Of a stretch of DNA of 28,120 nt, positions 3,502-25,000 are shown in pieces. Made by a program: the position numbers and the translations under genes. How positions within the stretch are numbered: the first letter of the stretch is position 1; each line of letters begins with the position of its first letter. Under the pieces are notes generated by a model. That model did not search any database and was not told the origin of the DNA. It worked only from the letters and a program-made list of their open reading frames with translations. The DNA lies in IMG/VR virus record IMGVR_UViG_3300017917_001748, positions 1-28,120 of that record; one strand, given 5' to 3'. Origin of the DNA: a virus.

Positions 3502-3668
3502 TGGAACAAAACAAATCATATTTAGGCTATAAACCTAAAGACAATAATTTAGTTAAGTTAGCACAGTATTTGCGCGTTAAAAACGCAAATAAAACGGTAA
3601 AAAACGCAGAACTAACTAAGTCAATTAGTTTGTCACAAAATAAAGTACTTCAAAATAAACGCTTCTAA
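3501..3668 (+). CDS. Small basic protein, unknown function
   Basis: 55 residues, Lys/Asn-rich, starting MEQNKSYLGYKPKDNN and ending VLQNKRF. It is joined to both neighbours by TAATG overlaps (3499-3503 and 3666-3670), which strongly supports it as real despite its size. It lies within the connector cluster, so a neck or assembly role is possible. No family recognised. Confidence 0.65.
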   Translation: MEQNKSYLGYKPKDNNLVKLAQYLRVKNANKTVKNAELTKSISLSQNKVLQNKRF

Positions 3669-4189
3669 TGCAAACATATTATTCATTTACCAATTTCTTT
3701 AATAATGTATGTTTATCACATCCAAACATTACTACATTCACTATGGGTGATTTGTATAATGTAGACATGGCTAAGCAAACATTATTTCCATTAGCGCATT
3801 TGATTGTGAATAATACAACAATTGCTTCTGGTTTAATGCAATACAATGTTACGTTATTAGTAATGGACAGAGTAGTAGATATAACTGATAATTCAGAAGG
3901 TCATTACAATACATTGATTAAGAACTATAAGGATGTAACTAATATAGTTGACGTACATAATACATCATTATCAACATTAAATGATATTACATCTTACATT
4001 TACAGAAATCCACAAGCATACCAGTACAATGTAATTGGTGATTCATTAGCTACACCATTTGAAGAACGTTTTAATAACTTACTTGCTGGATGGGCTATTG
4101 ATTTGAATATAGCAGTTGGTAATGTAAACCCAATGTGTGTAATCAATATTAGTGATAACCAAGCAAACGGAGGTGATAATGTATGTTAG
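3668..4189 (+). CDS. Tail-completion / neck protein candidate
   Basis: 173 residues. The early part holds HPNITTFTMGDLYNVD and the hydrophobic strands FPLAHLIVNN, YNVTLLVMDRVVD, then a helical section and a C-terminal strand INISD. This layout (N-terminal helix, DxD-like turn, alternating strands, long helix) resembles small tail-terminator or tail-completion proteins encoded between connector and tail genes. It overlaps the next gene by 7 bases. The call comes from position and fold-like pattern, not from a signature motif. Confidence 0.5.
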   Translation: MQTYYSFTNFFNNVCLSHPNITTFTMGDLYNVDMAKQTLFPLAHLIVNNTTIASGLMQYNVTLLVMDRVVDITDNSEGHYNTLIKNYKDVTNIVDVHNTSLSTLNDITSYIYRNPQAYQYNVIGDSLATPFEERFNNLLAGWAIDLNIAVGNVNPMCVINISDNQANGGDNVC

Positions 4190-4656
4190 AACCAGAAGTA
4201 TTACAAGCGGAACAAGCATGGGCTCAGCAAGTAGTAACTAATGCTAAGTCAATCTTAATCCGTAATAATAAAAGAGCAAGTGGTAAACTAATTAATTCAA
4301 TTAGATACCAAGTAGCACCTGACGGCAAGATTAAATTCTTTTATGCTGAAGAAGGTAAATACGTTGAGCAGGGGAGAAGACCTGGAGATAGGTTTCCACC
4401 ACCTGCTCCCATTGAAAGATGGATTAGACAAAAAGGAATTAAGGGTATAAGTAGAGATGGTAGAGCAATTAGTGATAGATCATTAACATTTTTGATTAGT
4501 AGATCCATAGCTAGAAAAGGTATTAGACCACTACCATTTATAAGAGATGCTGTTAAAAAAGCAGTTAAAGAATTTGCACCTAAATTAGCTAAAATTAAAG
4601 CTAAAGCAATGGTACAACGTTTAAAAACTGATTTGCGTAGCACCCTAAAAAAATAA
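4183..4656 (+). CDS. HK97 gp10-like tail-completion protein
   Basis: 157 residues, very basic at the C-terminus. The HK97-gp10-like pattern is visible in order: SGKLINSIRY (~32-41), strands leading to YVEQGRRPG (~60-68), PPPAPIERWIRQKGI (~72-86), then LISRSIARKGIRPLPFIRDA (~108-127) and a Lys-rich terminal helix. Such proteins complete or stabilise the tail end at the neck. It fits directly before the tail genes. The antisense open frame is a shadow. Confidence 0.75.
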   Translation: MLEPEVLQAEQAWAQQVVTNAKSILIRNNKRASGKLINSIRYQVAPDGKIKFFYAEEGKYVEQGRRPGDRFPPPAPIERWIRQKGIKGISRDGRAISDRSLTFLISRSIARKGIRPLPFIRDAVKKAVKEFAPKLAKIKAKAMVQRLKTDLRSTLKK

Positions 4657-5892: not shown

Positions 5893-8800
5893 ATGGGAGT
5901 TATAAGTGCACAAGGATATAGTGGCAAATTAGTTGCTAAGGAGTCAGGATTAATTCTTGACACTTTTGCTGATGAGTCAATTAAGGTATCAAATAATATT
6001 CTTGATTTATTTGATTTAGGACAAGTACCAGGTACATTTTCTAGAACAATTACATTACCAGGAACAAAAAAGAATGATGCTTTCTTTGAGCAATATTATG
6101 ACGTATCAGTTTATTTCCCAGATCAATTCAATACTAACCAAAAAGTAGAAGCATATCTAGATTTTGATGCGTTTTATTTACTTGATGGTTTTATGCAATT
6201 AAATAAGGTAAATGTAAGAGCAAATAAGTTTATTGACTCATATGAAATTACTTTATTTGGTTCAATTACTAATTTTAGCGTTGATACAAGATCATCTTTT
6301 CTAACAGATATTAGTTCTTTACGCGCTTATAATCATACGTCTTCTTTAACTAATATTACAGCAAGTTGGCAACGTAACTTATTTAATGGTGATATTGTTT
6401 ATCCAATGGCTGAATATGGTCAACAAATATTTTATTCACAAGACGGACAATTTGGAATTAATACAACTAGTGGATCATTAGATGTTCAAGATTATAAACC
6501 AGCTATCCGTTTAAAGAAAGTATGGGATGCTATTTTTGATGAATTTGGTTACACATATACTGGATCATTTTGGAATCAGTCATGGTTAAATGATGTTTAC
6601 TTACTTGCTAATAACAATTTAAGAACACCTGTATATCAACCAAGCATTGAAACATTTGGTCAAGGTAAAATTAATTCAGTATCATCATCTCTTTATGTTG
6701 TTTTAACATCATCTGCTTCATTAGATTTTACAGCTGAGGCTATTGAGTATGATTATAACGGTAAATTTACATTAGGCACACCAGCAACTTATACAGTTGA
6801 TTCTGTTACTACATTAGATTGTGAAGTTAAATTTGGATATTCTTTTGCAGGATATACTGCAACAGATACAATGGTAAATTTTAATGTTTATTTTGTTACT
6901 GGTTCAACAGCATATACATCATCATTAACTTCACTTAACACTCAATTAAACACAATAACACCTCCTACTACTTTCTCTACACGTAATGATAGTACTGTGT
7001 TTAAATCACCTGCATTGCCAGCAGGTACATATCAAATAAAATATGGTGTATATAGTCCTATTAATGTTAGTTTTTATTATCAACCAAACCCAAATCCAGA
7101 AAGTACAAGCTGGTTTAAAGTAAATAAAGTAAATCAAGCTGCTGATAATAAAATACTTGATTTAACTAATAACATGCCATTTGGTACGTCTGGAATTAGA
7201 GTAATTGATTTTATCACATCAGTACAAAAGAAATTTAATTTAGTTATTTACCCATCTAAGGTAAATCCTAATCAATTTATAGTTGAATCATTTAATAACT
7301 GGTATAATTCAGGTGATACAGTTGATTTTAACAAATACATCAATCTAAATGAAAAAATTGAAGTTTTACCTGCTAACCAATTAGGTTACAGACAACTTAG
7401 ATTCAGTGATGCAGATGATTCTGATTATATTGAAACAATATTCAAACGCACAAACAATAGAGTATATGGTGAATCAAATTATTATGATTCAGGTTCATTC
7501 TTTTCTCAAGGTAAATTAGAAGTACTTAGTAATGTAATTGCTTCTGGTCCGTTAGGATTAATACCAGGATCAGTATTTACTGGATCAGCATCAGCTGTAG
7601 GAACAGGAATATGTACAACATATGAATTTAATAATCCATCTTCAGATAATATTGCTTTTTTAAATATTACATTATGTGATGGAACTCCATTAAGTACAAC
7701 AGTAGATAGAAATTCTCTTCAAAACTACTGTGTTTTAAGTGATTCTTATATTGATTTTTATAATAATGATGGTCAAAATCCAGTTCAAATAAATAGTTTA
7801 GGTGATTGTTCACCAGCACCAACAGGAAGTGTTTCTATAGGCACTGCTTATCCAACATATGTTCCTTATTATGTTGCAGATGATAAGTACAAACCAGCAA
7901 GAGTATTACCACGTATAATGTTTTATAATGGATTAGTTAGTGCATCTGCTTATTATGTAGACGCTGCTAATTCAACTAATACTGCAGTGCAATCAGTACA
8001 ACTTAACAAATATCCTTATTTTGACAATTATAGTACTGGTAGTTTAAATGGTACTGCTTCTATATTTCCACAATTAAATTCTAAATCATTACTTTATAAT
8101 AATGAACAAGCAGTATGGGGTACAACTCCAACTGCATCTTTAGTATCTGAGTATTGGTCTGATTATTTAAGTTTATTATATAATCCAAGAACAAGATTAT
8201 TAAATGCAGCAGCGGTAATTCCGTTATCTGATTATTTTGAATTAGAATTAAATGATGTTGCTCAATTTAGAGGCAACTATTATCATTTACGTGCTATTAA
8301 TGATTATGATTTAAAAACAGGTGAATGTTTAGTTCAGTTATTAGGACCATTGTTACAGGAAACTCCATTAACAACATTTGTAACACCTACAACTTCAACT
8401 ACAACAACAACTACAACAGCTGCAACAACAACTACAACAAGTACTACTACTACTACAACAACAGGGGCTGCAACTACAACTACAACAACTACTACAACAT
8501 CAACAACTACAACAACAACAACATACAGAACACAATATTTAGTTGAATTATGTGGTGGTGGTTTAGGTCCATACATTGTAACTAGAGCAACTGGTGATAC
8601 TCCAGCTGGTATAGGTCAAGCATTTAGAATTTCAGGAAATTCAGGAGCTGGATTTAATGGTACTAATTGTTGGACAGTATTAGAAATTGATCCAGTTGGT
8701 TCAATTGATTATGCTGATTTAGCATTTGGAACTGTATTTAGTACTTGTGAAGCTTGTGTACCAACTACAACATCAACAACTACAACTACTACAACAATAG

Positions 8801-9903
8801 CTGTTAACTTTGGTGGTTCAACAGGATGTTCTAATGGTTCAGATGGTCAAATAACAATTACATCATTTAGTGGTGGTGGAGGTACTTATCAAGCATCAAG
8901 TACAACATATTCAAGTGAAACAAATGCTTTAAATGGTACTTATACAGATGTAAGTACATTAAGAACATATACTGGATTAGCAGTTGGCACTTATTGGGTT
9001 GCTTTAAGAGATAAAAATCAAACAAGTAATAGAATAGCTAAACCATTTACTGTTAATGCTTGTCCTACAACAACTACAACTACACAAGCTCCAGTTACAT
9101 TTGATATTACTGGTGTTTGTACAGGTACAACTCAAACTATTACAGTAAATAACTTTGGTGGTGGTGATGGTTCAACATACTATGTATCAACTACAACTTA
9201 TGGTGATGCAGGTTCTGCAGCAATAGGTGCAGTAACATTAGAAACTGGTGGTTCTAGAGTATTCACAAACCAACCAAATGGAACAAGATATGTTAGAGTA
9301 GCTTCAACAATTAGTGGTTTAGTTAAAGGTGGTGGTCAAACAAATTGTACAACTACAACAACAACAAGTACTACTACAACTACTACAACATTATTAACAT
9401 ATCAAGTTGAAGTGTGTGGTGGTGGTATTGGACCATATTGGGTAACTAGAGCTAGTGGAGATATACCTGCAGGTATAGGTCAAGCATTTAAGATTTCTGG
9501 TAATAGTGGTGCTGGATTTAACGGTACTAACTGTTGGGAAGTATTAGATAGTAGTACATCACAAGTTCCTGATTACACTAACTTAGCATTTGGTACAGTG
9601 TTTAGTAACTGTGAAGCTTGTATTCCTACAACTACAACTACTACTTCAACTACAACAACAACTACAACAGCAGCTCCTGATTGTGAATGTTACTCAATCT
9701 TTAATGAAGGTGGAACAACAGGTAATTACTCTTATCAAAGATGTCCAGATGGTGTAGTTGTTAGTCCAAATATCTTAGCTGGAACTATTCAAACAAGATG
9801 CGTATTAGCAGGAACAACTATCACAATTAACTCTGGTCTCCTAACGGATGTTCAATGTGGAACACCTTGTAATACATCAGGAGATTGTAGTGATTGTATA
9901 TAA
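5893..9903 (+). CDS. Large modular tail protein with poly-Thr linkers and adhesin-like C-terminus
   Basis: 1336 residues. Residues ~1-830 form the tail part; TFSRTITLPGTKKNDAFF near residue 50 is a motif seen at the N-terminus of large tail proteins of Bacteroidota phages. From ~833 the protein becomes beads on Thr-rich strings: linker (833-877); Cys domain A1 (~879-956, ELCGGG..GPY, GIGQAF, NCW, CEAC); linker; SprB-like domain B1 (~970-1056, DGQITI, GLAVGTYWV); linker; B2 (~1066-1150); linker; A2 (~1165-1244, a diverged copy of A1); linker; and a Cys-rich end domain (~1263-1336, CECYSIF to CSDCI). The C-terminal beads probably project and bind host surface glycans or adhesins. Out-of-frame Asn- or Val-rich open frames here are by-products of the ACA/ACT repeats. 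Confidence 0.7.
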   Translation: MGVISAQGYSGKLVAKESGLILDTFADESIKVSNNILDLFDLGQVPGTFSRTITLPGTKKNDAFFEQYYDVSVYFPDQFNTNQKVEAYLDFDAFYLLDGFMQLNKVNVRANKFIDSYEITLFGSITNFSVDTRSSFLTDISSLRAYNHTSSLTNITASWQRNLFNGDIVYPMAEYGQQIFYSQDGQFGINTTSGSLDVQDYKPAIRLKKVWDAIFDEFGYTYTGSFWNQSWLNDVYLLANNNLRTPVYQPSIETFGQGKINSVSSSLYVVLTSSASLDFTAEAIEYDYNGKFTLGTPATYTVDSVTTLDCEVKFGYSFAGYTATDTMVNFNVYFVTGSTAYTSSLTSLNTQLNTITPPTTFSTRNDSTVFKSPALPAGTYQIKYGVYSPINVSFYYQPNPNPESTSWFKVNKVNQAADNKILDLTNNMPFGTSGIRVIDFITSVQKKFNLVIYPSKVNPNQFIVESFNNWYNSGDTVDFNKYINLNEKIEVLPANQLGYRQLRFSDADDSDYIETIFKRTNNRVYGESNYYDSGSFFSQGKLEVLSNVIASGPLGLIPGSVFTGSASAVGTGICTTYEFNNPSSDNIAFLNITLCDGTPLSTTVDRNSLQNYCVLSDSYIDFYNNDGQNPVQINSLGDCSPAPTGSVSIGTAYPTYVPYYVADDKYKPARVLPRIMFYNGLVSASAYYVDAANSTNTAVQSVQLNKYPYFDNYSTGSLNGTASIFPQLNSKSLLYNNEQAVWGTTPTASLVSEYWSDYLSLLYNPRTRLLNAAAVIPLSDYFELELNDVAQFRGNYYHLRAINDYDLKTGECLVQLLGPLLQETPLTTFVTPTTSTTTTTTTAATTTTTSTTTTTTTGAATTTTTTTTTSTTTTTTTYRTQYLVELCGGGLGPYIVTRATGDTPAGIGQAFRISGNSGAGFNGTNCWTVLEIDPVGSIDYADLAFGTVFSTCEACVPTTTSTTTTTTTIAVNFGGSTGCSNGSDGQITITSFSGGGGTYQASSTTYSSETNALNGTYTDVSTLRTYTGLAVGTYWVALRDKNQTSNRIAKPFTVNACPTTTTTTQAPVTFDITGVCTGTTQTITVNNFGGGDGSTYYVSTTTYGDAGSAAIGAVTLETGGSRVFTNQPNGTRYVRVASTISGLVKGGGQTNCTTTTTTSTTTTTTTLLTYQVEVCGGGIGPYWVTRASGDIPAGIGQAFKISGNSGAGFNGTNCWEVLDSSTSQVPDYTNLAFGTVFSNCEACIPTTTTTTSTTTTTTTAAPDCECYSIFNEGGTTGNYSYQRCPDGVVVSPNILAGTIQTRCVLAGTTITINSGLLTDVQCGTPCNTSGDCSDCI
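8389..8523 (+). repeat. (ACA/ACT)n repeat coding the main poly-Thr linker
   Basis: 45 codons, nearly all ACA or ACT, broken only by a few Ser, Ala and Gly codons. It encodes the long flexible linker at residues 833-877 of the tail protein. Being a trinucleotide microsatellite, it can change length without shifting frame. Confidence 0.9.
8764..8796 (+). repeat. (ACA/ACT)n poly-Thr linker
   Basis: Eleven codons, all Thr except one Ser, joining domain A1 to SprB-like domain B1. Confidence 0.85.
9067..9084 (+). repeat. Short (ACA/ACT)n poly-Thr linker
   Basis: Six Thr codons between the two SprB-like domains B1 and B2, the shortest linker of the series. Confidence 0.75.
9349..9390 (+). repeat. 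(ACA/ACT)n poly-Thr linker
   Basis: Fourteen codons, Thr with one Ser (six Thr, one Ser, seven Thr), joining B2 to domain A2. Confidence 0.85.
9628..9669 (+). repeat. (ACA/ACT)n poly-Thr linker
   Basis: Fourteen codons, Thr with one Ser, joining domain A2 to the Cys-rich end domain. It has the same six-Thr, Ser, seven-Thr plan as the linker at 9349. Confidence 0.85.
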
Positions 9904-9912
9904 AAATATAAT

Positions 9913-10062
9913 ATGACACACAATATAGACATAGAGACAATTGTTACAATGTTAGATATAGTACCTAAAAAATACTATACTAATAATATAGCAATAGCAA
10001 AAGGTAAATATAAATTACCTAAAACATTAAAAGAACGTTTTAAAAAAATGATCAATGGCTGA
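9913..10062 (+). CDS. Small basic protein before tape measure, unknown function
   Basis: 49 residues, starting MTHNIDIETIVTMLDIVPKK and ending RFKKMING, Lys-rich and probably helical. It fills the gap between the large tail protein and the tape measure, with 9 bases before its ATG and an 8-base overlap into the tape measure start. Tight packing supports translation. Its position is where a tape-measure partner might be encoded, but no family is recognised. Confidence 0.6.
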   Translation: MTHNIDIETIVTMLDIVPKKYYTNNIAIAKGKYKLPKTLKERFKKMING

Positions 10063-11596
10063 TGAAACAATAGACATAGACGTTAATACCAATGCGGATG
10101 AAACTGGTGGTAAATTTGTAAGCTTAAGAACACAAATTAGAGAAACTACAGTTGCACTTCAGAAATTAGAAGCAGCGGGTAAGACTGGTACTACAGAATT
10201 TAAAAATTTATCTGATAAATTAGATAACTTACAAGACGCTCAAAAACGCGTTGCATTTCAATCTAAACAAATTGAAGATAAATTAGCAGCATTACCTGGC
10301 CCATTAGGTACAGTAGGTAAAGGTATTGCTAGTGCTAAAGATGCAATGGATACGTTTGGTAAAACAACTACTGTTGCATTAGGTGTTGTTGGCTTAGTTA
10401 TTACTGCTTTTTTTGCAATGAAAAAGGCTTTAGAATCAACTAAAGAAGGTCAAGAAACACTTAACCGTATAACTCAAGCATTCTCTAAAGTATTAGGTCC
10501 ATTATTAGCATTAATTGAAGATTTAGCAATTCCTGTATTTAATGCATTTGCTAAATACCTTGAATTTGTAGCTAGTGGTATTACTAAGTTTGTTAAATTT
10601 TTAGGTATATCAGATTCTAAAATTAAGGAATCAACATTATCAGTAGATAAGGTTCAACAAGAAGCTAACAAAAAGGAAAAAGAACGTCAAGAAGAAGCAC
10701 AAAAGAACCGTGAGGAAGCAGCTAAAAAAGAAGAAGAACGTAGAAAAAAAGCAGCTGAAAAACAAAGAGAAATTGATGAAGATAATAGACGTTTAGCGTT
10801 TGAACAGGAAAAGAAAGATTTAGAGTATCAATTAGCTGAATCAGCTAAGCTACAGGCTAAAATGAAGAAAATAGGTCTTCAAGTTGTTAAAGAAGAAACA
10901 CTTGCTGATCAAAAGAAAATATATGATGAGGAACAGAGGAGAGAGAAAATGTTCCAAGAAGACATCACTAAGTTAAAGATTAATACTTTAGATGAGCAAA
11001 ATGCTGCTATTAAGAAAATGGGCACTCCAGTATTAATCCAAGAATTAGATTCACAACTAACGGCATATAGAGCATCTAAAGACGCTGAAAAACAATATGC
11101 TAAATTAACTGAAGAAGGTAAAGCACAAATTGTATCTAACGCATTAGGTACATTAGCATCAGCGGTAGGTGAAGCAACAGTAGCAGGTAAAGCATTAAGT
11201 ATTGCTCAAGCAACAGTTGATACATACGCTGGTGCCAATAAAGCATTAGCTACATATCCACCTCCATTTGGTGCAATTGCAGCAGGTACAGTTATATTAG
11301 CTGGTTTGTTAAACGTTAAAAAGATATTATCTGTAAGAATACCTAAAGCAGGACCAAGCGGAGCAGGTAGTGCACCACAAGCACCTAATGTATCATTTAG
11401 TCAACCAAATTTAGCTGCACCACAAATTGGTGCTACAGCAGGTCAAACTGGTACATTAGCTGGCATAGTTGGTAATGCATTAAATCAGAATAATTCACAA
11501 TTAAGACCAATTCAAGCATATGTTGTAGGTGATCAAGTTACTTCACAACAACAATTAGATAGAAGAGTATCACTTGCGGCTAGATTAGGCGGATAG
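10055..11596 (+). CDS. Tail tape measure-like protein
   Basis: 513 residues. The N-terminal ~100 residues are helical with LRTQIRETTVALQKLEAAGK, typical of tape measure starts. A hydrophobic segment (~105-125, VALGVVGLVITAFFAMKK) and a second (~148-172) follow, then a long charged coiled coil rich in Lys/Glu (~200-310). The C-terminal region holds GKALSIAQATVDTYAGANKA and FGAIAAGTVILAGLLNVKKI, the usual end-of-tape-measure signature. It spans the tail lumen and sets tail length; at roughly 1.5 angstrom per residue this implies a short tail of about 75 nm (rule of thumb). No peptidase domain is visible. Confidence 0.75.
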   Translation: MADETIDIDVNTNADETGGKFVSLRTQIRETTVALQKLEAAGKTGTTEFKNLSDKLDNLQDAQKRVAFQSKQIEDKLAALPGPLGTVGKGIASAKDAMDTFGKTTTVALGVVGLVITAFFAMKKALESTKEGQETLNRITQAFSKVLGPLLALIEDLAIPVFNAFAKYLEFVASGITKFVKFLGISDSKIKESTLSVDKVQQEANKKEKERQEEAQKNREEAAKKEEERRKKAAEKQREIDEDNRRLAFEQEKKDLEYQLAESAKLQAKMKKIGLQVVKEETLADQKKIYDEEQRREKMFQEDITKLKINTLDEQNAAIKKMGTPVLIQELDSQLTAYRASKDAEKQYAKLTEEGKAQIVSNALGTLASAVGEATVAGKALSIAQATVDTYAGANKALATYPPPFGAIAAGTVILAGLLNVKKILSVRIPKAGPSGAGSAPQAPNVSFSQPNLAAPQIGATAGQTGTLAGIVGNALNQNNSQLRPIQAYVVGDQVTSQQQLDRRVSLAARLGG

Positions 11597-11619: not shown

Positions 11620-13107
11620 ATGGCAAAGAAAGTATATAAAATGTTTATTGATGAGGAAGATCAAGAAAGTGGCGTATTTGCTATTTCATTGGTTGAGAAT
11701 CCAGCAATTGAAAGTAACTGGGTTTACTTATCTAAACATCATAAAATTGAATTAGCAACGGCTAATAATGATAAGCAATTATTAATTGGTCCAGTATTAA
11801 TTCCAAATAAAGAAATACCACGTATTGATCAGGAAACTGGTGAAGAATACAGTATTGTATTTGATGAAGATGTTATTGAAAAAGCAGCACAATTATTTTT
11901 ACAACGTCAATACAATAATTCATCAACACTAGAACATGATGAGCCATTAGATGATATATCATTTGTTGAATCATGGATTGTAGCTGACCCTAAAGCAGAC
12001 AAAACAAACGCATACGGATTAGAATATCCTAAAGGTACTTGGGTTGTAATGGCTAAAGTTAACAATGGAGATATTTGGGCTGATTATGTTAAAACAGGTA
12101 AAGTTAAAGGATTTAGCTTAGAAGGATTATTTGGACATAACTTAGTAGAAGCATCAAGTCAAGCGCATTTAATAGCCTTATCTGAGTTGAATGATATTCT
12201 TGATAATGAGTATGCTGAGGAAATGTTAGCAACAATCAAAGGCATTATTAAGAGAGACGGACGCATGAAAGATGGTAAGTATCTAGAATTAGAAACTTAC
12301 AATGATTATCCAGACACAGTTAAAAACGCCGCACAACGTGGCATAGATTTAAATGCAAAAGTTAATAATAGATGTGCAACAGAAGTTGGGAAAATCAGGG
12401 CACAGCAACTGGCTAACGGTAGAAATATTAGTGTGCAAACCATCAAGCGCATGTATGCCTACACTAGCAGAGCTAGAGAGTTTTACAACCCAGATGATAC
12501 TGAAGCATGTGGAACTATCTCTTACCTATTGTGGGGAGGAGATGCTGCTAATAGATGGAGTGCAGCTAAATTAAAAGAATTAGGATTGTTTACTGAAAAT
12601 GAAACAGCAGTATCTGTTAGTTCATCTTACTCAGGACAATTTGGAGATGGTAAAGGTAAAAAACCAAAGAAAGATAACTATATAGCACCTGAATTATTAG
12701 CTGGTGTTAAAGTTGGATTTGATTTCAATGACGTACTAACTACACAACGCGGTAAGGAATTAGCAAGACAATTAGTTTTAGAACAATATGATGTATACAT
12801 TGTAACTGCTTTAAATCCAGCTAACCGCAATGTAGTAGAACGTATAGCTAAAGAAGTTGGTATTGATACTGATAAGATATTTTTTACTAATAATCAACCA
12901 AAAGCACCTGTAATTAACAGATTAGGTCTTAGAAGATTTTATGATAATAATGCTAATGTAGTTAAAGAAATTCAAGATGCATTACCAATGGTAGATGTAG
13001 TTAAATTTGCTGGATTAGAAGATGCATGTTGGGAAGGATATGAGGCAATTGGAACTAAAATATTAGATGGTAGAGAAGTACCTAATTGTGTACCAATTAA
13101 AGAATAA
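11620..13107 (+). CDS. XkdF-like prohead protease fused to unnamed domain and HAD-like domain
   Basis: 495 residues in three parts. Residues ~15-175 match XkdF-like head maturation proteases: SLVENPAIESNW, LIGPVLIPNKEIPR, LEHDEPL with His106, and KVKGFSLEGLF with Ser166 as likely catalytic pair. Residues ~218-322 form an unnamed domain (KNAAQRGIDLNAKVNN, CGTISYLLWGG). Residues ~362-465 look like a HAD fold: GFDFNDVLTT (Asp368), IVTA (Thr396), a Lys at 428 and FYDNNANVV (Asp442). The last 26 residues, with CWEGYEAIGTKI and VPNCVP, resemble a tail peptide I recall from other phage proteins. The HAD motif has Asn370 where phosphatases carry the second Asp. The protease is encoded far from the capsid gene, after the tape measure. 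Confidence 0.7.
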   Translation: MAKKVYKMFIDEEDQESGVFAISLVENPAIESNWVYLSKHHKIELATANNDKQLLIGPVLIPNKEIPRIDQETGEEYSIVFDEDVIEKAAQLFLQRQYNNSSTLEHDEPLDDISFVESWIVADPKADKTNAYGLEYPKGTWVVMAKVNNGDIWADYVKTGKVKGFSLEGLFGHNLVEASSQAHLIALSELNDILDNEYAEEMLATIKGIIKRDGRMKDGKYLELETYNDYPDTVKNAAQRGIDLNAKVNNRCATEVGKIRAQQLANGRNISVQTIKRMYAYTSRAREFYNPDDTEACGTISYLLWGGDAANRWSAAKLKELGLFTENETAVSVSSSYSGQFGDGKGKKPKKDNYIAPELLAGVKVGFDFNDVLTTQRGKELARQLVLEQYDVYIVTALNPANRNVVERIAKEVGIDTDKIFFTNNQPKAPVINRLGLRRFYDNNANVVKEIQDALPMVDVVKFAGLEDACWEGYEAIGTKILDGREVPNCVPIKE

Positions 13108-15596: not shown

Positions 15597-15750
15597 TTTA
15601 GTTGAAAAAATAATAGCAATAGTTACGCTTGGCTACGGCCACTCAATTGCAACGTGGGTAGCTAAAAAAATGGGCTACTCCACTTGCGGTTGTGAAACAC
15701 GTAAAGAATGGTTAAATACATTATTCAACAAACAAGATATTAAATTATGA
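15571..15750 (+). CDS. Small Cys-motif protein (CGCxxRKEWLN), unknown function
   Basis: 59 residues from ATG 15571; ATG 15559 would add four. The N-terminal helix is amphipathic (KLGDLVEKIIAIVTLG), followed by GYGHSIATWVAKKMGY and the striking C-G-C-E-T-R-K-E-W-L-N. I recall similar short CGCxxRxxxLN proteins in other phages, without known function. It overlaps the sigma-like gene by 26 bases and joins the first glycosyltransferase by ATGA, so it is translated with the operon. The Cys pair could bind a metal or form a disulfide. Confidence 0.55.
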   Translation: MLTKIKLGDLVEKIIAIVTLGYGHSIATWVAKKMGYSTCGCETRKEWLNTLFNKQDIKL

Positions 15751-16676
15751 TTTACATGTGCGCACAGCCAGGTATAAAATATTATATGTGGCAAGTAGAA
15801 GTTATGCTTTACAATTTTGAAAAACACGGTATTGATATGAATAATGTTCATATTGTGTTTGCTAAAAATAGTACTGAACCTGAAGGTATATATAGATATA
15901 CTGAAGCAGAAGCATTACAAAAACGTTATGGTGCTCAAATATTCTGGTATGAAGATACTAGACCAAATATTAGATACATTTCATCTATTAGACCAAATGT
16001 ATTTAAACAACATTGGAAAGCACATCCTGAATTACAAACTGAAACTATATTCTATCATGATTGTGATGTTATATTCACTAAAAAACCTGATTGGAGTAAA
16101 TTTGAAAATGATGATGTTTGGTATTTAAGTGATACTAACAGCTACATTAACTCAGACTATATTAGATCTAAAGGTGATGATGTGTATGAATTAATGTGTG
16201 AAATAGTAGGCATACATCCATTTACACCATTAAAATACAATGAACATTCTGGTGGTGCACAATATATTTTAAAGAATGTTAACTATAAGTTCTGGGACAA
16301 AGTAGAACGTGATAGTCAAGATTTATTTGAAAAAGTAACTGCACATGAAATGGCTAAAAAACAAGCTAACCCATCATATCATGAATTACAAATTTGGTGT
16401 GCTGACATGTGGGCTGTATTATGGAATGGATGGATGCAAGGTAATGAAACAAAATGTGTTCCAGAAATGAATTTTACATGGGGTACAGATCCAATTAGTA
16501 ATTGGGGTACAAATGTAATTTATCATAATGCAGGTGTAGTAAATGCTCAAAATGGATTTTATAAAGGCATTTATCAAGCAGAATACCCATACAATAAAAA
16601 CTTAAGTGTGTTAAATAACTGTTCACTCAAGTATTATGAAGAAATTAAAGAAGTAGAAAAACAAAGCGTGATATAA
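15747..16676 (+). CDS. Glycosyltransferase-like protein 1 (GT-A fold)
   Basis: 309 residues, cytoplasmic. The central FYHDCDVIF (Asp105-Cys-Asp107) on a strand after ETI is the DxD metal/nucleotide-sugar site of GT-A enzymes. Later, NEHSGGAQYILKN (~165-177) fits the acceptor-loop region, and NVIYHNAGV (His260) fits the late His that binds the metal or diphosphate. The N-terminus (YYMWQVEVMLYNFEKHG) resembles the first helix of family-8-like or unclassified GT-A proteins. Start and previous stop overlap as ATGA. The substrate is unknown; phage virion proteins, host surface glycans or DNA are all possible. Confidence 0.6.
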   Translation: MIYMCAQPGIKYYMWQVEVMLYNFEKHGIDMNNVHIVFAKNSTEPEGIYRYTEAEALQKRYGAQIFWYEDTRPNIRYISSIRPNVFKQHWKAHPELQTETIFYHDCDVIFTKKPDWSKFENDDVWYLSDTNSYINSDYIRSKGDDVYELMCEIVGIHPFTPLKYNEHSGGAQYILKNVNYKFWDKVERDSQDLFEKVTAHEMAKKQANPSYHELQIWCADMWAVLWNGWMQGNETKCVPEMNFTWGTDPISNWGTNVIYHNAGVVNAQNGFYKGIYQAEYPYNKNLSVLNNCSLKYYEEIKEVEKQSVI

Positions 16677-17353
16677 TGAAGATAAAAGCGTTTATTATAA
16701 TGTATAATAGGCTAACAATACCTAAAAAATTAGCTGAGAATTTAGCTGATACAGGATGTGAACCTATTTTACTAGATAATTCATCTACTTATCCACCGTT
16801 GTTAGAATGGTATAAAACATGTCCTTTTAAAGTACACACATTTGATAAAAGATATGGTGAAAGAGTATTTTGGGAATCTGGATTATTTGATAAATACAAT
16901 GATGAATATTATATTGTTACTGATCATGATTTAGATATTTCAAACGTACCAGCAGATTATACTGATAAATTAATCAACGGATTAAATAATAAAGAAATAA
17001 CTAAATGTGGTTTATCATTAGATATATTTGATGTACCAAATACTGAATACGGTGAGATTGTAAGAGGATGTGAATTAAAGTATTGGAATGAAAAAGATTA
17101 TTTAGGCAATTATATAGCAGGTGTAGATACTACGTTTGCAATGTATGATAGAAAACGTCAAGGTGAAGGATGGAGTTATGGAGATAATTTCTACTATGCA
17201 ACTAGATTACCTCAGCCTTATACTGCTAAACACATGCCTTGGTATTTAAATGAGGACTCATTAGAATTAGATGATGAAGAAAGATATTATCATACTGGAT
17301 GTGATAATTTTTGGTCATTAGTTTACAAAAGAAAACATAATATAAATTTATGA
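16676..17353 (+). CDS. Glycosyltransferase-like protein 2 (short GT-A)
   Basis: 225 residues. The N-terminus MKIKAFIIMYNRLTIPKKLA is a typical GT-A first strand and helix, with LLDNSS (~32-37) as the second nucleotide-binding strand. YYIVTDHDLDI (Asp83-His-Asp85) is the DxD site. GVDTTFAMYD (~149-158) and AKHMPWYL (His186) fit the later acceptor and metal sites. It is short for the family but all core elements are present. The TAATG overlap with the previous gene and the 4-base overlap with the next tie it into one translational unit with two other candidate transferases. Confidence 0.6.
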   Translation: MKIKAFIIMYNRLTIPKKLAENLADTGCEPILLDNSSTYPPLLEWYKTCPFKVHTFDKRYGERVFWESGLFDKYNDEYYIVTDHDLDISNVPADYTDKLINGLNNKEITKCGLSLDIFDVPNTEYGEIVRGCELKYWNEKDYLGNYIAGVDTTFAMYDRKRQGEGWSYGDNFYYATRLPQPYTAKHMPWYLNEDSLELDDEERYYHTGCDNFWSLVYKRKHNINL

Positions 17354-18213
17354 AAATAATAAATGCAAATTACGGTGGTACTGATTGTACAGACGTAGTA
17401 AAAAGTAAAATAAACGGAGATAAACTCATACTTAAAGTAAGTAATGATATTATTGGAGATCCTATTCCTGGAACAGTTAAATACCTTACTGTAACATATG
17501 AAATAGATGGAGTTGAAAAAACAGAAACATGGCAAGAAGGAACAATATGTTCATTGCCAAAAACTGAATTAAAACGTTTAGGTATATTTTATTCAAACAA
17601 TGATAATTCAAAAATATTTCCTACAATCAAACAATCATTAGATAGTATTGCTAAAGCAGCTGATGGTAAAGCAGATATTATTACTTGTATGTGGAATCCA
17701 TTTGAAGGCAATCCATTTCAAGAAATTATTAGTTGGTATAGATCACAATCACATCTAAATCAATTACTACAAATCATGCAGTGTCTATACACAGCGCGTG
17801 AGATTAAAGAATATGATTACGTTAGTTTCTTAGAACATGATGTGTTATATCCAGAAGGGTATTTTGATTATCCTGAATTTGATGAGGGTGAGATTTACAC
17901 TAACATGCACTATATGGGTGTAAATAAAGATGGTTGGCAACAACGTAAACAAAATGATGAGCCGTTTCACCAAATGACAATGCGTTTTAATTCAGCAATA
18001 GAGCATTGTGAAAACATACTTCCAAATGCTTTGGTTAGGAACGCGGGTATGATTGAGAGCCAAACAGTAACTAGAAAACAATGGTATTCAACTCAACCAG
18101 CAGTACACGTAAATCATGGTTATCATTTCACATCACATAACTCAATTTACGGTACACCAACTCCTGAATTGCAACCATATTGGGGCAGTCATGAAAAATA
18201 TAAATTAGATTAA
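17350..18213 (+). CDS. DUF3395-like domain fused to glycosyltransferase-like domain
   Basis: 287 residues. Residues 1-70 (MKIINANYGGTDCTDVV, NGDKLILKVSN, GDPIPGTVKYLTVTY) match the domain I know as DUF3395, a small beta domain mostly known from larger proteins. Residues ~75-285 look like a GT-A enzyme: IFYSNN, then YDYVSFLEHDVLYP with Glu162-His-Asp164 in the DxD position, and AVHVNHGYHFTSHN with several His near the end. The beta domain may bind carbohydrate or partner protein and guide the transferase; this is inference. It overlaps the previous gene by 4 bases and closes the three-gene transferase set. Confidence 0.55.
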   Translation: MKIINANYGGTDCTDVVKSKINGDKLILKVSNDIIGDPIPGTVKYLTVTYEIDGVEKTETWQEGTICSLPKTELKRLGIFYSNNDNSKIFPTIKQSLDSIAKAADGKADIITCMWNPFEGNPFQEIISWYRSQSHLNQLLQIMQCLYTAREIKEYDYVSFLEHDVLYPEGYFDYPEFDEGEIYTNMHYMGVNKDGWQQRKQNDEPFHQMTMRFNSAIEHCENILPNALVRNAGMIESQTVTRKQWYSTQPAVHVNHGYHFTSHNSIYGTPTPELQPYWGSHEKYKLD

Positions 18214-19485: not shown

Positions 19486-19800
19486 ATGCCATTCACATCA
19501 GAAACAGCAACAGGTAGACCTAAAGGCGCTGAAGGTAAAGACACTAAGAAATTACGTGAAGCAATTGCTGCTATCACTAATGGTGGTGTTGAGGATTTTC
19601 AACGCGCATTAGGTGAAGTATTGGAAGAAAATCCAGCTAAATACCTTGAATTATACCTTAGATTATTAGAATACACAATGCCTAAACTACGTTCAATAGA
19701 CACAAACATAGAATTAGGTGACAACACAATACAAAAAATAACAGTAGAAGTAAATGCCAAGAGAACTGAACATACAAGCAACGGAAGTATTTCAGCGTAA
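19486..19800 (+). CDS. Terminase small subunit-like protein
   Basis: 104 residues. The N-terminal GRPKGAEGKDTKKLREAI follows the GRPKGS...K pattern of small terminase-type proteins in Bacteroidota phages. A helical middle (~30-70, EDFQRALGEVLEENPAKYLE, LLEYTMPKLRS) is suited to oligomerisation. It lies directly before and overlaps the large terminase by 47 bases. Its role would be recognising phage DNA and loading the large subunit. The sequence is short, so the call leans on position plus the GRPKG motif. Confidence 0.6.
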   Translation: MPFTSETATGRPKGAEGKDTKKLREAIAAITNGGVEDFQRALGEVLEENPAKYLELYLRLLEYTMPKLRSIDTNIELGDNTIQKITVEVNAKRTEHTSNGSISA

Positions 19801-20986
19801 TTGGGATGCTACAACAAGATTTATAGCTAACATTGGTGGCTCCCGTTCCACAAAGACCTATTCCATACTACAATTACTCATAGTGAAGGCTTTGGAATCT
19901 GAGGAGCCACTTGTTATCTCTATTGTTAGAAAGTCAATGCCATCAATGCGTATCTCAGTAATGCGTGATTTTTTTGACATACTTAAATCATATGATTTAT
20001 ACAACGTAGAACTGCACAATAAAACAGAAAACACATATCAGCTAAATAATACGTTAATTGAGTTTTTTAGTATTGATGATGCGCAGAAACGCCGTGGTAC
20101 TAAACGTGATATACTATTTGTTAATGAGGCAAATGAATTAAGTTGGGAGGATTTCTTTCAGTTAAATATTAGAACAACACAACAAGTATTCATTGACTTC
20201 AACCCATCAGAACAATTCTGGTTTAATGAAAATTTACAGAGTAGAGATGACATTACAATTATTCACTCAACATATAAAGATAATCCATACTTAAATGATG
20301 ACCAAATTAATGAAATTGAAAGACTACAGTATACAGATTTACAATACTATCAAATCTATGCATTGGGACAGTTTGCTGGTGCTTTGGATTTGGTATATAG
20401 CTATACTTTGGTTGATCATATCCCTGTAGAGCAAGCTAAATTAGTAGCGTTAGGAATGGACTTTGGTTTTACAAATGACCCAACTACATTAGTAGAAGTA
20501 TGGCAATGGAATGATGCTATTTATCTTAATGAATTAATCTATGAACGTAACCTAACTAATCAGGATATTGCTGATAGATTAAATGCATATGAAGTAGACA
20601 AATACATTGAAATAATAGCTGACTCAGCTGAACCAAAATCAATTGAGGAAATAAGAAGATATGGTTTTAACATTAAACCAGCATTTAAGGGCCCTGACAG
20701 CGTTTTAAACGGTATTGATATATTAAAGCGTAAACGCATTCACGTTACAAGACAATCCGTAAACATGATTAAGGAATTAAATGGTTATAAATGGGTAACA
20801 GATAAAAACGGCAATAAGTTAAACAAACCAATTGATATGTTTAACCACTCACTTGACGCCGCACGTTATGTTGCACTAAACAAATTAAAACAAGGTAATG
20901 TTGGTAAATACAATATCAGCATTGTTGGTAGAGATGGTGATGTAAGCAGATTAAACACAGGAAATAAATTATACGCAATAAGATAA
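19754..20986 (+). CDS. terL: Terminase large subunit
   Basis: 410 residues, the packaging motor ATPase and nuclease. Walker A is GGSRSTKT (28-35), Walker B is DILFVNEA (119-126) with catalytic Glu125, and the coupling region FIDFNPS is at 146-152. The RNase H-like nuclease domain shows LGMDFGFTNDPTT (Asp236), IIADSAEP (Asp290) and DMFNHSLDAARY (Asp361/Asp368). The type is PBSX-like (Terminase_3). The 47-base overlap with the small subunit is needed because no later Met precedes Walker A. Confidence 0.9.
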   Translation: MPRELNIQATEVFQRNWDATTRFIANIGGSRSTKTYSILQLLIVKALESEEPLVISIVRKSMPSMRISVMRDFFDILKSYDLYNVELHNKTENTYQLNNTLIEFFSIDDAQKRRGTKRDILFVNEANELSWEDFFQLNIRTTQQVFIDFNPSEQFWFNENLQSRDDITIIHSTYKDNPYLNDDQINEIERLQYTDLQYYQIYALGQFAGALDLVYSYTLVDHIPVEQAKLVALGMDFGFTNDPTTLVEVWQWNDAIYLNELIYERNLTNQDIADRLNAYEVDKYIEIIADSAEPKSIEEIRRYGFNIKPAFKGPDSVLNGIDILKRKRIHVTRQSVNMIKELNGYKWVTDKNGNKLNKPIDMFNHSLDAARYVALNKLKQGNVGKYNISIVGRDGDVSRLNTGNKLYAIR

Positions 20987-20989
20987 CAT

Positions 20990-21679
20990 ATGAAAATTAC
21001 AGTTAAATACCCTGAAACATGGGCAGACATTACATTAAATGATTACTTACGTTTTTATCATGACGTTAAGGATCATATTAATACAGAAGATTATTTTACT
21101 AAAGCATTAGAATCAGCAGCAATACATTTTTTTAATGTACCAACTGATTTACTTTATTTGTTACCACAATCAACATTTAATAAAATATCAACTAGAGTAG
21201 CTAATTTAATTAGTTCAAGTGTAGACCACCCGTTGGTATTGTCTTTCACACTTGGTGATACTGAATATGGTTTTATACCTAAGTTAGATGAAATGACTTA
21301 CGGTGAATATCTTGATTTAGTAGCATACAGCAAAGATATATGGGCTAATATGCCTACAGTATTGAGTATATTATATAGACCAGTTATTAAACGTAAAGGG
21401 TTAGAATACAACATTTCAACATACTCAGGAACAAATCAAGACACAATTGATATGTTTGAAGAATTAATTACAATGGATGCCGTGTTTGGCGCAACTAGTT
21501 TTTTTTTGGATTTGCAAATGGACTTACTAAACGCTACCCTGACTTATTCAATGGAGATGATAGTGAAGGATCAAACACCAGAGACTTTAGCGGTACTGGA
21601 AACTTTGAAAAAAAGTGGTCTGGATATCACACAATTGCCCTCCTATCAAACAATGATATCACAAAATTTGACTCAATAA
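20990..21679 (+). CDS. Tail-assembly chaperone, short (G-like) product
   Basis: 229 residues in the 0 frame. The N-terminus ITVKYPETWADITLNDYLRF follows a W-x-D-(I/V)-T-x-x-x-Y/F pattern I associate with tail chaperone-like proteins of Bacteroidota phages. It is largely helical with a mid-region KLDEMTYGEYLDLVAYSKDI. Near the 3' end lies a T9 run, from which a -1 frame stays open for 93 codons beyond this gene's stop, giving a longer chaperone. Codon use after the T9 run is unusual for this genome (CTG, CCC, TCC, ACC), as expected where two frames are constrained. It is encoded after terminase rather than beside the tape measure, which is atypical. Confidence 0.6.
   Translation: MKITVKYPETWADITLNDYLRFYHDVKDHINTEDYFTKALESAAIHFFNVPTDLLYLLPQSTFNKISTRVANLISSSVDHPLVLSFTLGDTEYGFIPKLDEMTYGEYLDLVAYSKDIWANMPTVLSILYRPVIKRKGLEYNISTYSGTNQDTIDMFEELITMDAVFGATSFFLDLQMDLLNATLTYSMEMIVKDQTPETLAVLETLKKSGLDITQLPSYQTMISQNLTQ
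21499..21508 (+). promoter_or_regulatory. Probable -1 ribosomal frameshift slippery site
   Basis: Nine Ts then G: in the 0 frame T-TTT-TTT-TTG, a perfect X-XXY-YYZ slippery heptamer in two registers. The last stop in the -1 frame (TAG, 21496-21498) lies immediately upstream, and the frame then stays open to 21780. An A7 run at 21608-21614 is a weaker alternative. Confidence 0.6.
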
Positions 21680-21780
21680 CGGCTTTACCCATGCACCAGT
21701 GTTTGACATACTTGTCATACAGTAAAGATTTAGAACAGGTACAACAACAGCAAATGAAACAATTTCAGCCACTTGCATAA
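21499..21780 (+). CDS. Tail-assembly chaperone T-like extension, read by -1 frameshift
   Basis: This -1 frame has no ATG, GTG or TTG start until 21709, so it needs frameshifting from the gene at 20990; the fusion would be 263 residues. The extension is linker-like at first (GDDSEGSNTRDFSGTGNFEK), then has a compact helical domain: KWSGYHTIALLSNNDITKF, DSITALPMHQCLTYLSYSKD, LEQVQQQQMKQF. The order KW-x-x-Y, (N/G)DIT-x-F, then hQCLxxLxYxK matches T-type extensions of tail chaperones as I know them. The long product would bind the tape measure while the short product coats it, as for lambda gpG/gpGT. A sequencing error in the T9 run could mimic this, but would not explain why both frames look coding. 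Confidence 0.6.
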   Translation, partial: FFFGFANGLTKRYPDLFNGDDSEGSNTRDFSGTGNFEKKWSGYHTIALLSNNDITKFDSITALPMHQCLTYLSYSKDLEQVQQQQMKQFQPLA

Positions 21781-22094: not shown

Positions 22095-25000
22095 ATGGGA
22101 TATTCTAAAAATGACATGCTATCACAGAACGTGAATAGCTTCCCTAACAACAACTCAGGTCAAATTACACCTGCTGATTTAAGAGATTTCAATGCAAATT
22201 TGATCAACTCAATTCAGTTTACTGATACACCTACTCCGCAAGCAGTTTCAGCTTCATATGCTGCTACTGCTACTTCTGCATCATATGCTAGTGTTGCTGG
22301 TACTGCTATCAGTGTTGTTTCAGCATCATATGCTAATGTTGCAGGCACTGCTATTAATACTCCAAATGCATTTGTAAGTGTAATTAATGCTCCTTTACCT
22401 AATATTGTTACATTAACTAAAGGTGATGGTAGCACTACATCTGTAACAGTTAATGATGTAGCACACGCTATAAATGCTGATACTGCAATTAACGCTACTT
22501 CATCTTCATTTGCAGATAATGCTAATAATGCTTTATTTGCTGTAACAGCTTCTTACGCTGCAAATGTTCCAGCAACAGCTTCTTATGCTGCTTATGCTGC
22601 TCAAGCGGGTAGTGCTTCATATGCAACTACAGCTTCATTTGCTTTAAACGTACCAGCAACAGCATCATTTGCTACAACTGCTTCATACGCTATAGTAGCT
22701 CAAACATTATTAGGTTCAGTTCAATCAGCATCATATGCTTTAACTGCATCATATTCTGAAAATGCAGCTGGTATTAACAATTACTTGTTAACGTCTTCAT
22801 TCAACGCATACACAGCTTCAACAAACACATTTACATCTTCAATGAATGCATTTAGTGCATCAATGAGATCATTTAGTGCTTCAATTAATTTAGCTACTGC
22901 ATCATTAAATACGTTTACCAGCTCAATACAAGCGCAAGTAAACGGTTTACAGTCAGCTACCTCATCTTATGTTAGAAATGCTCAAACTAGCAGTATGAGC
23001 GTTTTAAGCGCTTCATTTGCTACTACAGCTTCATTTGCAAATAATATTGCAGGTGGTTTAAATATATCAGCATCAAACATTACTATAGCAAATAACTTAG
23101 TTGTAAACGGTACAGCATCATTTGCATATACAAGAACAACAACAGGATCAGCAGTAGTAATTGGTGATGAATTTATTATATTAAACGCAGATACACCTTA
23201 TTCTCCATTTGCTGGTATTAAAGTTTATGATACTGGTTCAAACGCAACCGCTTCATTTGAATGGAATGGTAACAATGATTACTGGATTACAGTAGAAGAG
23301 TCAGGTGCATCAGCAGGTGTATTAACAGGTGCTTCAGGATCTAAAGGATCAGAAGTATTCCCTTCATTAAATAGATTAACTAAAGGTACAGGCAATAACA
23401 CAATCATTAATTCTAATATTAGTGATAATGGAAGTATTGTATCAATTAATTCAAATACGCAAGTAACTGGTTCCTTACTAGTATCAGCAGGTATTACTGG
23501 TAGTTTAAATGGTACAGCAGCAACTGCATCATTTGTTAATACGTTAAATCAAAATGTAGTAATTACAGGTTCATTAAACGTATCAGGTGCTATTGGTGCA
23601 AGTAATATTATTCAAAATAATACAGATACATTTACATCATTACCTAAAATTTTTGAAATTGTAACTTGTACTCAAGCTGAGTATGAATCAGTTTCTGGTA
23701 GTGTAAATGCTCAAAATACATTATATATAATCAGTGGTTCAGAATCAAGTGTGGTATCAGCATCATATGCTTTATCTGCTTCTTACGCTGCAACTGCTCA
23801 ACAAGCAACATCTGCTTCATTTGCTACAACAGCTAGAAATGCAGATACAGCTTCATTTGTTACTACTGCTCAAACAGCTAGTTACGTTTTAAATGCAGTT
23901 AGTGCTTCATTTGCAACTTCTGCTTCACAAGCATTAACAGCATCATTTGTAAGAAATGCCCAAACAGCATCTTATGTACTAGGTTCAAATGTATCAGGAT
24001 CAGTATTAAGTGCTTCATACGCTAACAATGCTCAAACAGCATTTAGTGCTACTTCAGCTTCATTTGCTGCAACAGCACAACAAGCAACATCTGCTTCATT
24101 TGCTAGTGTTGCTCAAACAGCTACATCAGCATCTTTTGCTACATCAGCTTCTCAAGCGTTAACAGCATCTTTTGTTAGAAATGCTCAAACAGCATCTTAT
24201 GTATTAGGATCTAGTGTATCTGGATCAGTAGTAAGTGCATCATATGCTTTAACTTCTTCATTTGCAACACAAGCAGCTAATGCAGCTGGTGTTAATACTA
24301 TTACTTCAACTGCTAATCAGGATTTCCACTTAGCATTTGTTGATGGTGCAGATGGTAATAATCAACAAGTTTACTATGATGCTGATGGTGTTACTTACAA
24401 CCCATTTGATGGTTTAATTACTGGTTTAATTTCAAATGCAGTAACAGCTTCATTAGTATTAACTGCATCATTTGCAACCACAGCAGCAACAGCTCAACAA
24501 GCAACATCTGCTTCACAAGCAGCTCAATCAACAGCAGTAAGTGTAGCTACAGATAATGGTAATACTAATCATAAAGTATTATTTACAAATTCTTCAACAG
24601 CTGTTCCTAATGCTACTTTATTAATTGATCCTAGTGCTGGTGAATTTACTTACAACCCAAATACTAATCAATTATCAGTAACAGCATCATATGCTAACAA
24701 CGCTAACGTTGCTAGTACAGCTACTTCAGCATCATATGCTTTAACAGCATCATATGCAATGAATGGTGGTAGTGGTGGATCAGGATTTCCATTTACTGGA
24801 GACGCTGTTATATCTGGTAGTTTACAAATTAACTCATCAGTATCAGCTAGTAATGTTATCACAAACCAATTTGATACATTTACAAGTTCACCTATAATCA
24901 CTAATGTTGTAAGTTGTACTTATGCTGAATACTTAACTGTATCAGGTAGTACAGAAGCTCAATACACAATGTATATTGTAAGTGATGGTCCAATACCTCC

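Follow-up and report, generated by a model that had tools for sequence, protein, structure and literature searches.

Tail assembly genes with a conserved frameshift are a textbook example of ribosomal recoding. Lambda gpG/gpGT and the other siphophage chaperones consist of a short and a long form with a common N-terminal part; a -1 shift adds a small C-terminal domain to the long form, and the lambda gene lies between those of the major tail protein and the tape measure. A run of A or T can also give two products from one gene through slippage of RNA polymerase, as in Shigella mxiE, where an extra U yields the long form (PMC1088944), and in Thermus dnaX, whose run consists of nine As. In IS elements the orfA-orfB fusion is made by transcriptional slippage at an A/T run located in the overlap of the two ORFs. 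A run of nine A/T makes bacterial RNA polymerase slip efficiently, and a large proportion of genomes show selection against runs of that length (PMC5009743, PMC1088944).

The phage gene analyzed here, hereafter the slippage gene, shares with the lambda system a short and a long form, here predicted, with a common N-part, the -1 shift and a small C-domain added to the long form, and in most relatives it is a tail-module gene. It differs from lambda because it has no detectable homology to gpG/gpGT, follows the terminase gene, carries nine or ten Ts of apparently selected length with no RNA-structure signal, and has distant homologues without a shift. With mxiE, dnaX and the IS elements it shares an A/T run that joins two frames; however, mxiE and dnaX are cellular or plasmid genes and IS elements encode transposase, whereas here slippage, which is putative, concerns a phage morphogenesis gene encoding a tail-module protein in 57 lineages. 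A tblastn search against phages matched only the Nonlabens phages P12024S and P12024L, whose genes 38/39 and 40/41 (phrog_32199, phrog_38404) are homologous, have the same T9 and also come after terminase. These two genomes carry no annotation of the frameshift and list each frame as a hypothetical gene of its own.

The window is a stretch of viral DNA of 28,120 nucleotides (IMG/VR record IMGVR_UViG_3300017917_001748), and the slippage gene with its sites, the terminase and tape measure genes and the homologues of genes 41 and 42 given below are on its + strand. The 0-frame ORF (20990-21679; family phrog_32199) encodes a short product of 229 aa, composed of about 172 aa of shared N-part and a 0-frame tail of 57 aa. 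The T9 run at 21499-21507 is read in this frame as AGT TTT TTT TTG, with an in-phase heptamer T TTT TTT at 21499-21505. The last stop of the -1 frame, TAG at 21496-21498, abuts the 5' side of the run, and from there the -1 frame is open until the stop at 21778-21780; N-part and extension (21499-21780), joined on the basis of tblastn, the alignment of 57 lineages and hhalign, would give a long product of 263 aa. The original prediction, a programmed -1 frameshift producing a two-form tail chaperone, had placed the gene, the run, the heptamer and the preceding stop exactly at these positions. It had also stated that the -1 frame has no start codon before 21709, but the first is an ATG at 21691, still past the conserved KW-GY motif. 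An A7 run proposed as a second slip site does not qualify, since it reads TTG AAA AAA AGT and contains no in-phase 0-frame heptamer. A second in-phase T TTT TTT, absent from that prediction, is present at about 21128, and a -1 stop follows it at 21133. As for the prediction that 8 or 10 Ts would leave one uninterrupted frame, ten Ts do fuse the two frames, but eight lead to the +1 frame, whose first stop past the run is at 21528-21530, 9 codons on.

The -1 frame stays open for 86 codons at the T9 site, against a median of 6 at upstream in-frame positions. When codons were resampled synonymously, however, it remained open over the 0-frame tail in 14% of trials, so the open frame alone is modest evidence. 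The two-frame observation is instead confirmed by conservation. Besides the Nonlabens phages, scans of IMG/VR and GTDB genomes yielded many further relatives, the GTDB ones on MAG contigs with the labels Winogradskyella, Bacteroidetes and Epsilonproteobacteria; the clade is broad and consists mostly of marine, Bacteroidetes-type tailed phages. The conservation set comprised 164 loci holding both parts, corresponding to 143 distinct sequences and to 57 lineages at 80% identity. In all 164 the C-terminal domain is encoded in the -1 frame and the run at the junction is T9 or T10, lengths of 7, 8 and 11 never being found, and tblastn joined the N-part and the -1 domain across frames in relatives. 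The run and the -1 frame are thus conserved in related phages, which is the check that the original prediction had suggested. Synonymous change at four-fold sites of the fused frame is 0.37 in the N-part, 0.20 in the overlap and 0.24 in the non-overlapping C-part; since the last value is also low, the overlap value is no firm sign of dual-frame constraint, and for the 0-frame tail constraint is no more than suggested.

Distant homologues indicate what the complete protein looks like. A structure search with the 0-frame model reached Flavobacterium phage 6H, and from 6H onward Duneviridae, Helgolandviridae and Microcystis phages were found (FPSV-F7, laban6-1, Ingeline_1, Leef_1 and Microcystis phage Mea-Yong924-1; the flavophages are cultured). 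In these phages both domains are shared but are encoded by one ORF without interruption, 259-301 aa long. Aligned with these homologues, the fused profile matches over 232 columns (hhalign, E 1.1e-12, probability 97.8%); the -1 domain alone matches them weakly (E 6e-4, probability 28%). Because the match covers both parts, the trans-frame fusion is, judging from homology, a true protein. Moreover the single-ORF homologues are unbroken and contain no T run of 7 or more, so that the frame shift is, in the genomes compared, a property of one clade. The 6H homologue (10352-10927 in locus L168) is shortened by apparent indels, while FPSV-F7 and other near relatives are intact, and we treat it as a quirk of that record.

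How the two frames are joined was addressed through the run itself. All relatives have an in-phase T TTT TTT, as expected if ribosomes shift on it, but one is present in any T9 run irrespective of phase, and the heptamer therefore adds no evidence of its own. The Ts exceeding the heptamer move from one side of it to the other among the 57 lineages: one before and one after in 27, one and two in 12, two and one in 7, none and two in 4, two and none in 4, and none and three in 3. As a consequence of this distribution, all three codon phases are seen for T9 and likewise for T10, which suggests that selection acts on run length and not on the heptamer. The total is 9-10 in 57/57 lineages, while 100,000 permutations of the flanks gave 43.9 lineages on average and 53 at most; these statistics carry the caveat that the lineages are related to one another and that the tree is modestly supported. 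Mapped onto the tree, the two flanks require a minimum of 9 and 7 changes. In simulations with independent flanks, P for all totals falling at 9-10 was 0.03 when the rate produced fewer 5' changes than the real lineages show, and the outcome was 0/400 when the rate came closer to the counts seen. No RNA-fold signal was found around the site, the mean z being about 0 to +0.4 (pseudoknot-free folding of 70-nt windows with starts from 0 to +60), and an RNA stimulator downstream or upstream of the run was rejected on this ground. Finally, in 57/57 lineages a stop closes the +1 frame 2-9 codons on, although +1 stops are frequent at upstream positions too, where one occurs within 9 codons in 66%.

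The constancy of run length, the lack of a fold signal and the early closure of the +1 frame lead us to regard transcriptional slippage as the probable mechanism, in preference to ribosomal -1 frameshifting. The ribosomal reading, in which the long form is made at T TTT TTT and the surplus Ts reflect an amino-acid preference or aid the slip, is a serious possibility but a doubtful one. Besides the in-phase heptamer, the -1 direction and the C-terminal extension are those of classic tail chaperones (PMC5009743). The heptamer, however, needs only 7 Ts and totals of 7 or 8 never occur; this, together with the occurrence of T9 and T10 in all three phases and the missing downstream structure, disfavours it. 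The two-form -1 arrangement of the original prediction therefore stands and is strongly conserved, but it is not best explained by ribosomal frameshifting at a canonical heptamer. The two kinds of slippage may also both act at the T run.

In the model that we favour, with a probability of about 0.58 as a whole, one gene gives rise to two proteins with a common N-part, both of them made and needed. Standard expression would produce the short form, which ends in the 0-frame tail. On part of the transcripts RNA polymerase would slip at T9, and an extra U would bring the -1 frame into register, so that these transcripts would encode the long form with its conserved KWGWY-type helical domain; translation of transcripts in the +1 register would terminate after a few codons. 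The protein would be a member of the tail/neck assembly module and most likely act like gpG/gpGT, with the short form present in multiple copies and the rarer long form using its extra domain for a second contact.

The chaperone role is our best guess and is plausible from gene position and predicted structure. In most relatives the slippage gene heads the tail module, the usual order being terminase, slippage gene, gene 41, gene 42 (Neck1-like), 44, 45 and tape measure, with the tape measure gene about 5 kb downstream. In the window the gene for the terminase large subunit (19754-20986; phrog_2, E 7.5e-42) is directly upstream of the slippage gene, as had been noted, but the tape measure gene (10055-11596; phrog_3336, E 2.5e-12) starts about 10.9 kb upstream, not about 9 kb. 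The window's own clade has its tail block upstream of terminase, to which the slippage gene is still adjacent; the homologues of P12024S genes 41 and 42, in most relatives the next genes after the slippage gene, are located elsewhere in the window, at 3668-4656 (phrog_30964; phrog_29822/Neck1). The slippage gene is not between the genes of the major tail protein and the tape measure, and in most relatives several genes separate it from the latter.

Other features of the surroundings were recorded. Away from the slippage site there are only 14 T9 or longer runs in 527 kb, and 11 of these precede the slippage gene by 39-62 nt (loci L016, L095, L096, L108, L124, L135, L136, L149, L150, L156 and L161); some of these T9/T10 runs follow GC-rich stretches, as in an intrinsic terminator, and the slippage gene may be the first of its own transcription unit in these phages. 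Near the tape measure gene a 495-aa ORF (11620-13107) looks by eye like a head protease in its N-part and, in a stretch at the C-terminal end, like a HAD-type phosphatase (VGFDFNDVLTT). In the C-terminal third of a 1336-aa ORF (5893-9903) there are long linkers made of threonine-rich repeats, and similar linkers are present in the ORFs at 22095 and 26173. Three consecutive ORFs at 15747-18213, between the structural genes and terminase, look by eye like glycosyltransferases.

The AF2 model of the 0-frame product has a pLDDT of 87, with values exceeding 90 in most of the N-part, and the -1 domain is predicted with modest confidence as four helices. The N-part model has no fold match in the PDB. 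In BFVD the 0-frame model has weak matches to proteins that carry the label tail assembly chaperone (best E 0.17, probability 0.75), and these are the only named phage-protein structure matches outside the family. Searches of Pfam and PHROG gave no chaperone match for the slippage protein, and its profile had no useful match to lambda gpG with hhalign. Leucine-rich repeat proteins, obtained as PDB sequence matches with a first alignment, vanished with a larger one, and a weak match to phrog_166, 'tail protein', was dropped because it had no counterpart in P12024S or FPSV-F7. As the slippage gene has neither the position nor the sequence homology that define the gpG/gpGT chaperones, we do not file it as a member of them. 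The tail chaperone of the original prediction, favoured by position in most relatives and by the weak fold hits and weakened by the single-ORF distant homologues, is kept as plausible.

The protein could instead be a neck, tail-completion or connector component whose long form is structural. The distant homologues are single-form, that of Ingeline_1 adjoins the portal and adaptor genes, and in the window the slippage gene itself adjoins terminase; yet a two-form arrangement has been kept in 57 lineages, and the named weak fold hits are all labelled tail assembly chaperone, and we consider such a role possible but less likely. That the two frames encode separate proteins, the -1 ORF being started alone by reinitiation near the 0-frame stop, is very improbable. 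It corresponds to the annotation of P12024S/L, where an ATG overlaps the 0-frame stop and reinitiation may be possible, and a -1 ATG is located within 30 nt of that stop in 31/57 lineages. The -1 frame, however, is conserved from the run on, which in most cases precedes the first start codon by about 60 codons, and the fusion matches the single-ORF homologues throughout; an independent start was rejected for this early conservation. An error of sequencing or assembly in the run, or a decayed gene, deserves almost no weight: homopolymers are error-prone and the distant homologues are unbroken, but the T9/T10 run and the -1 relation hold in all 164 loci, in 143 distinct sequences from many samples including the cultured P12024S and P12024L, and error is therefore out as a general explanation.

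In the part of the literature that was searched, no paper beyond general reviews and surveys links a tail assembly chaperone gene with transcriptional slippage. If run length, and not codon phase, is what is conserved in this large and mostly uncultured clade, it would be a case of natural transcriptional slippage for virion assembly. Polymerase slippage on T9-10 might then set the ratio of two tail-module protein forms, in place of a lambda-like ribosomal frameshift, a proposal that we advance tentatively, at slightly less than even odds. PHROG families 32199 and 38404, both 'unknown', would be explained as the two halves of one protein, which gene callers split or truncate wherever the slippage gene is present.
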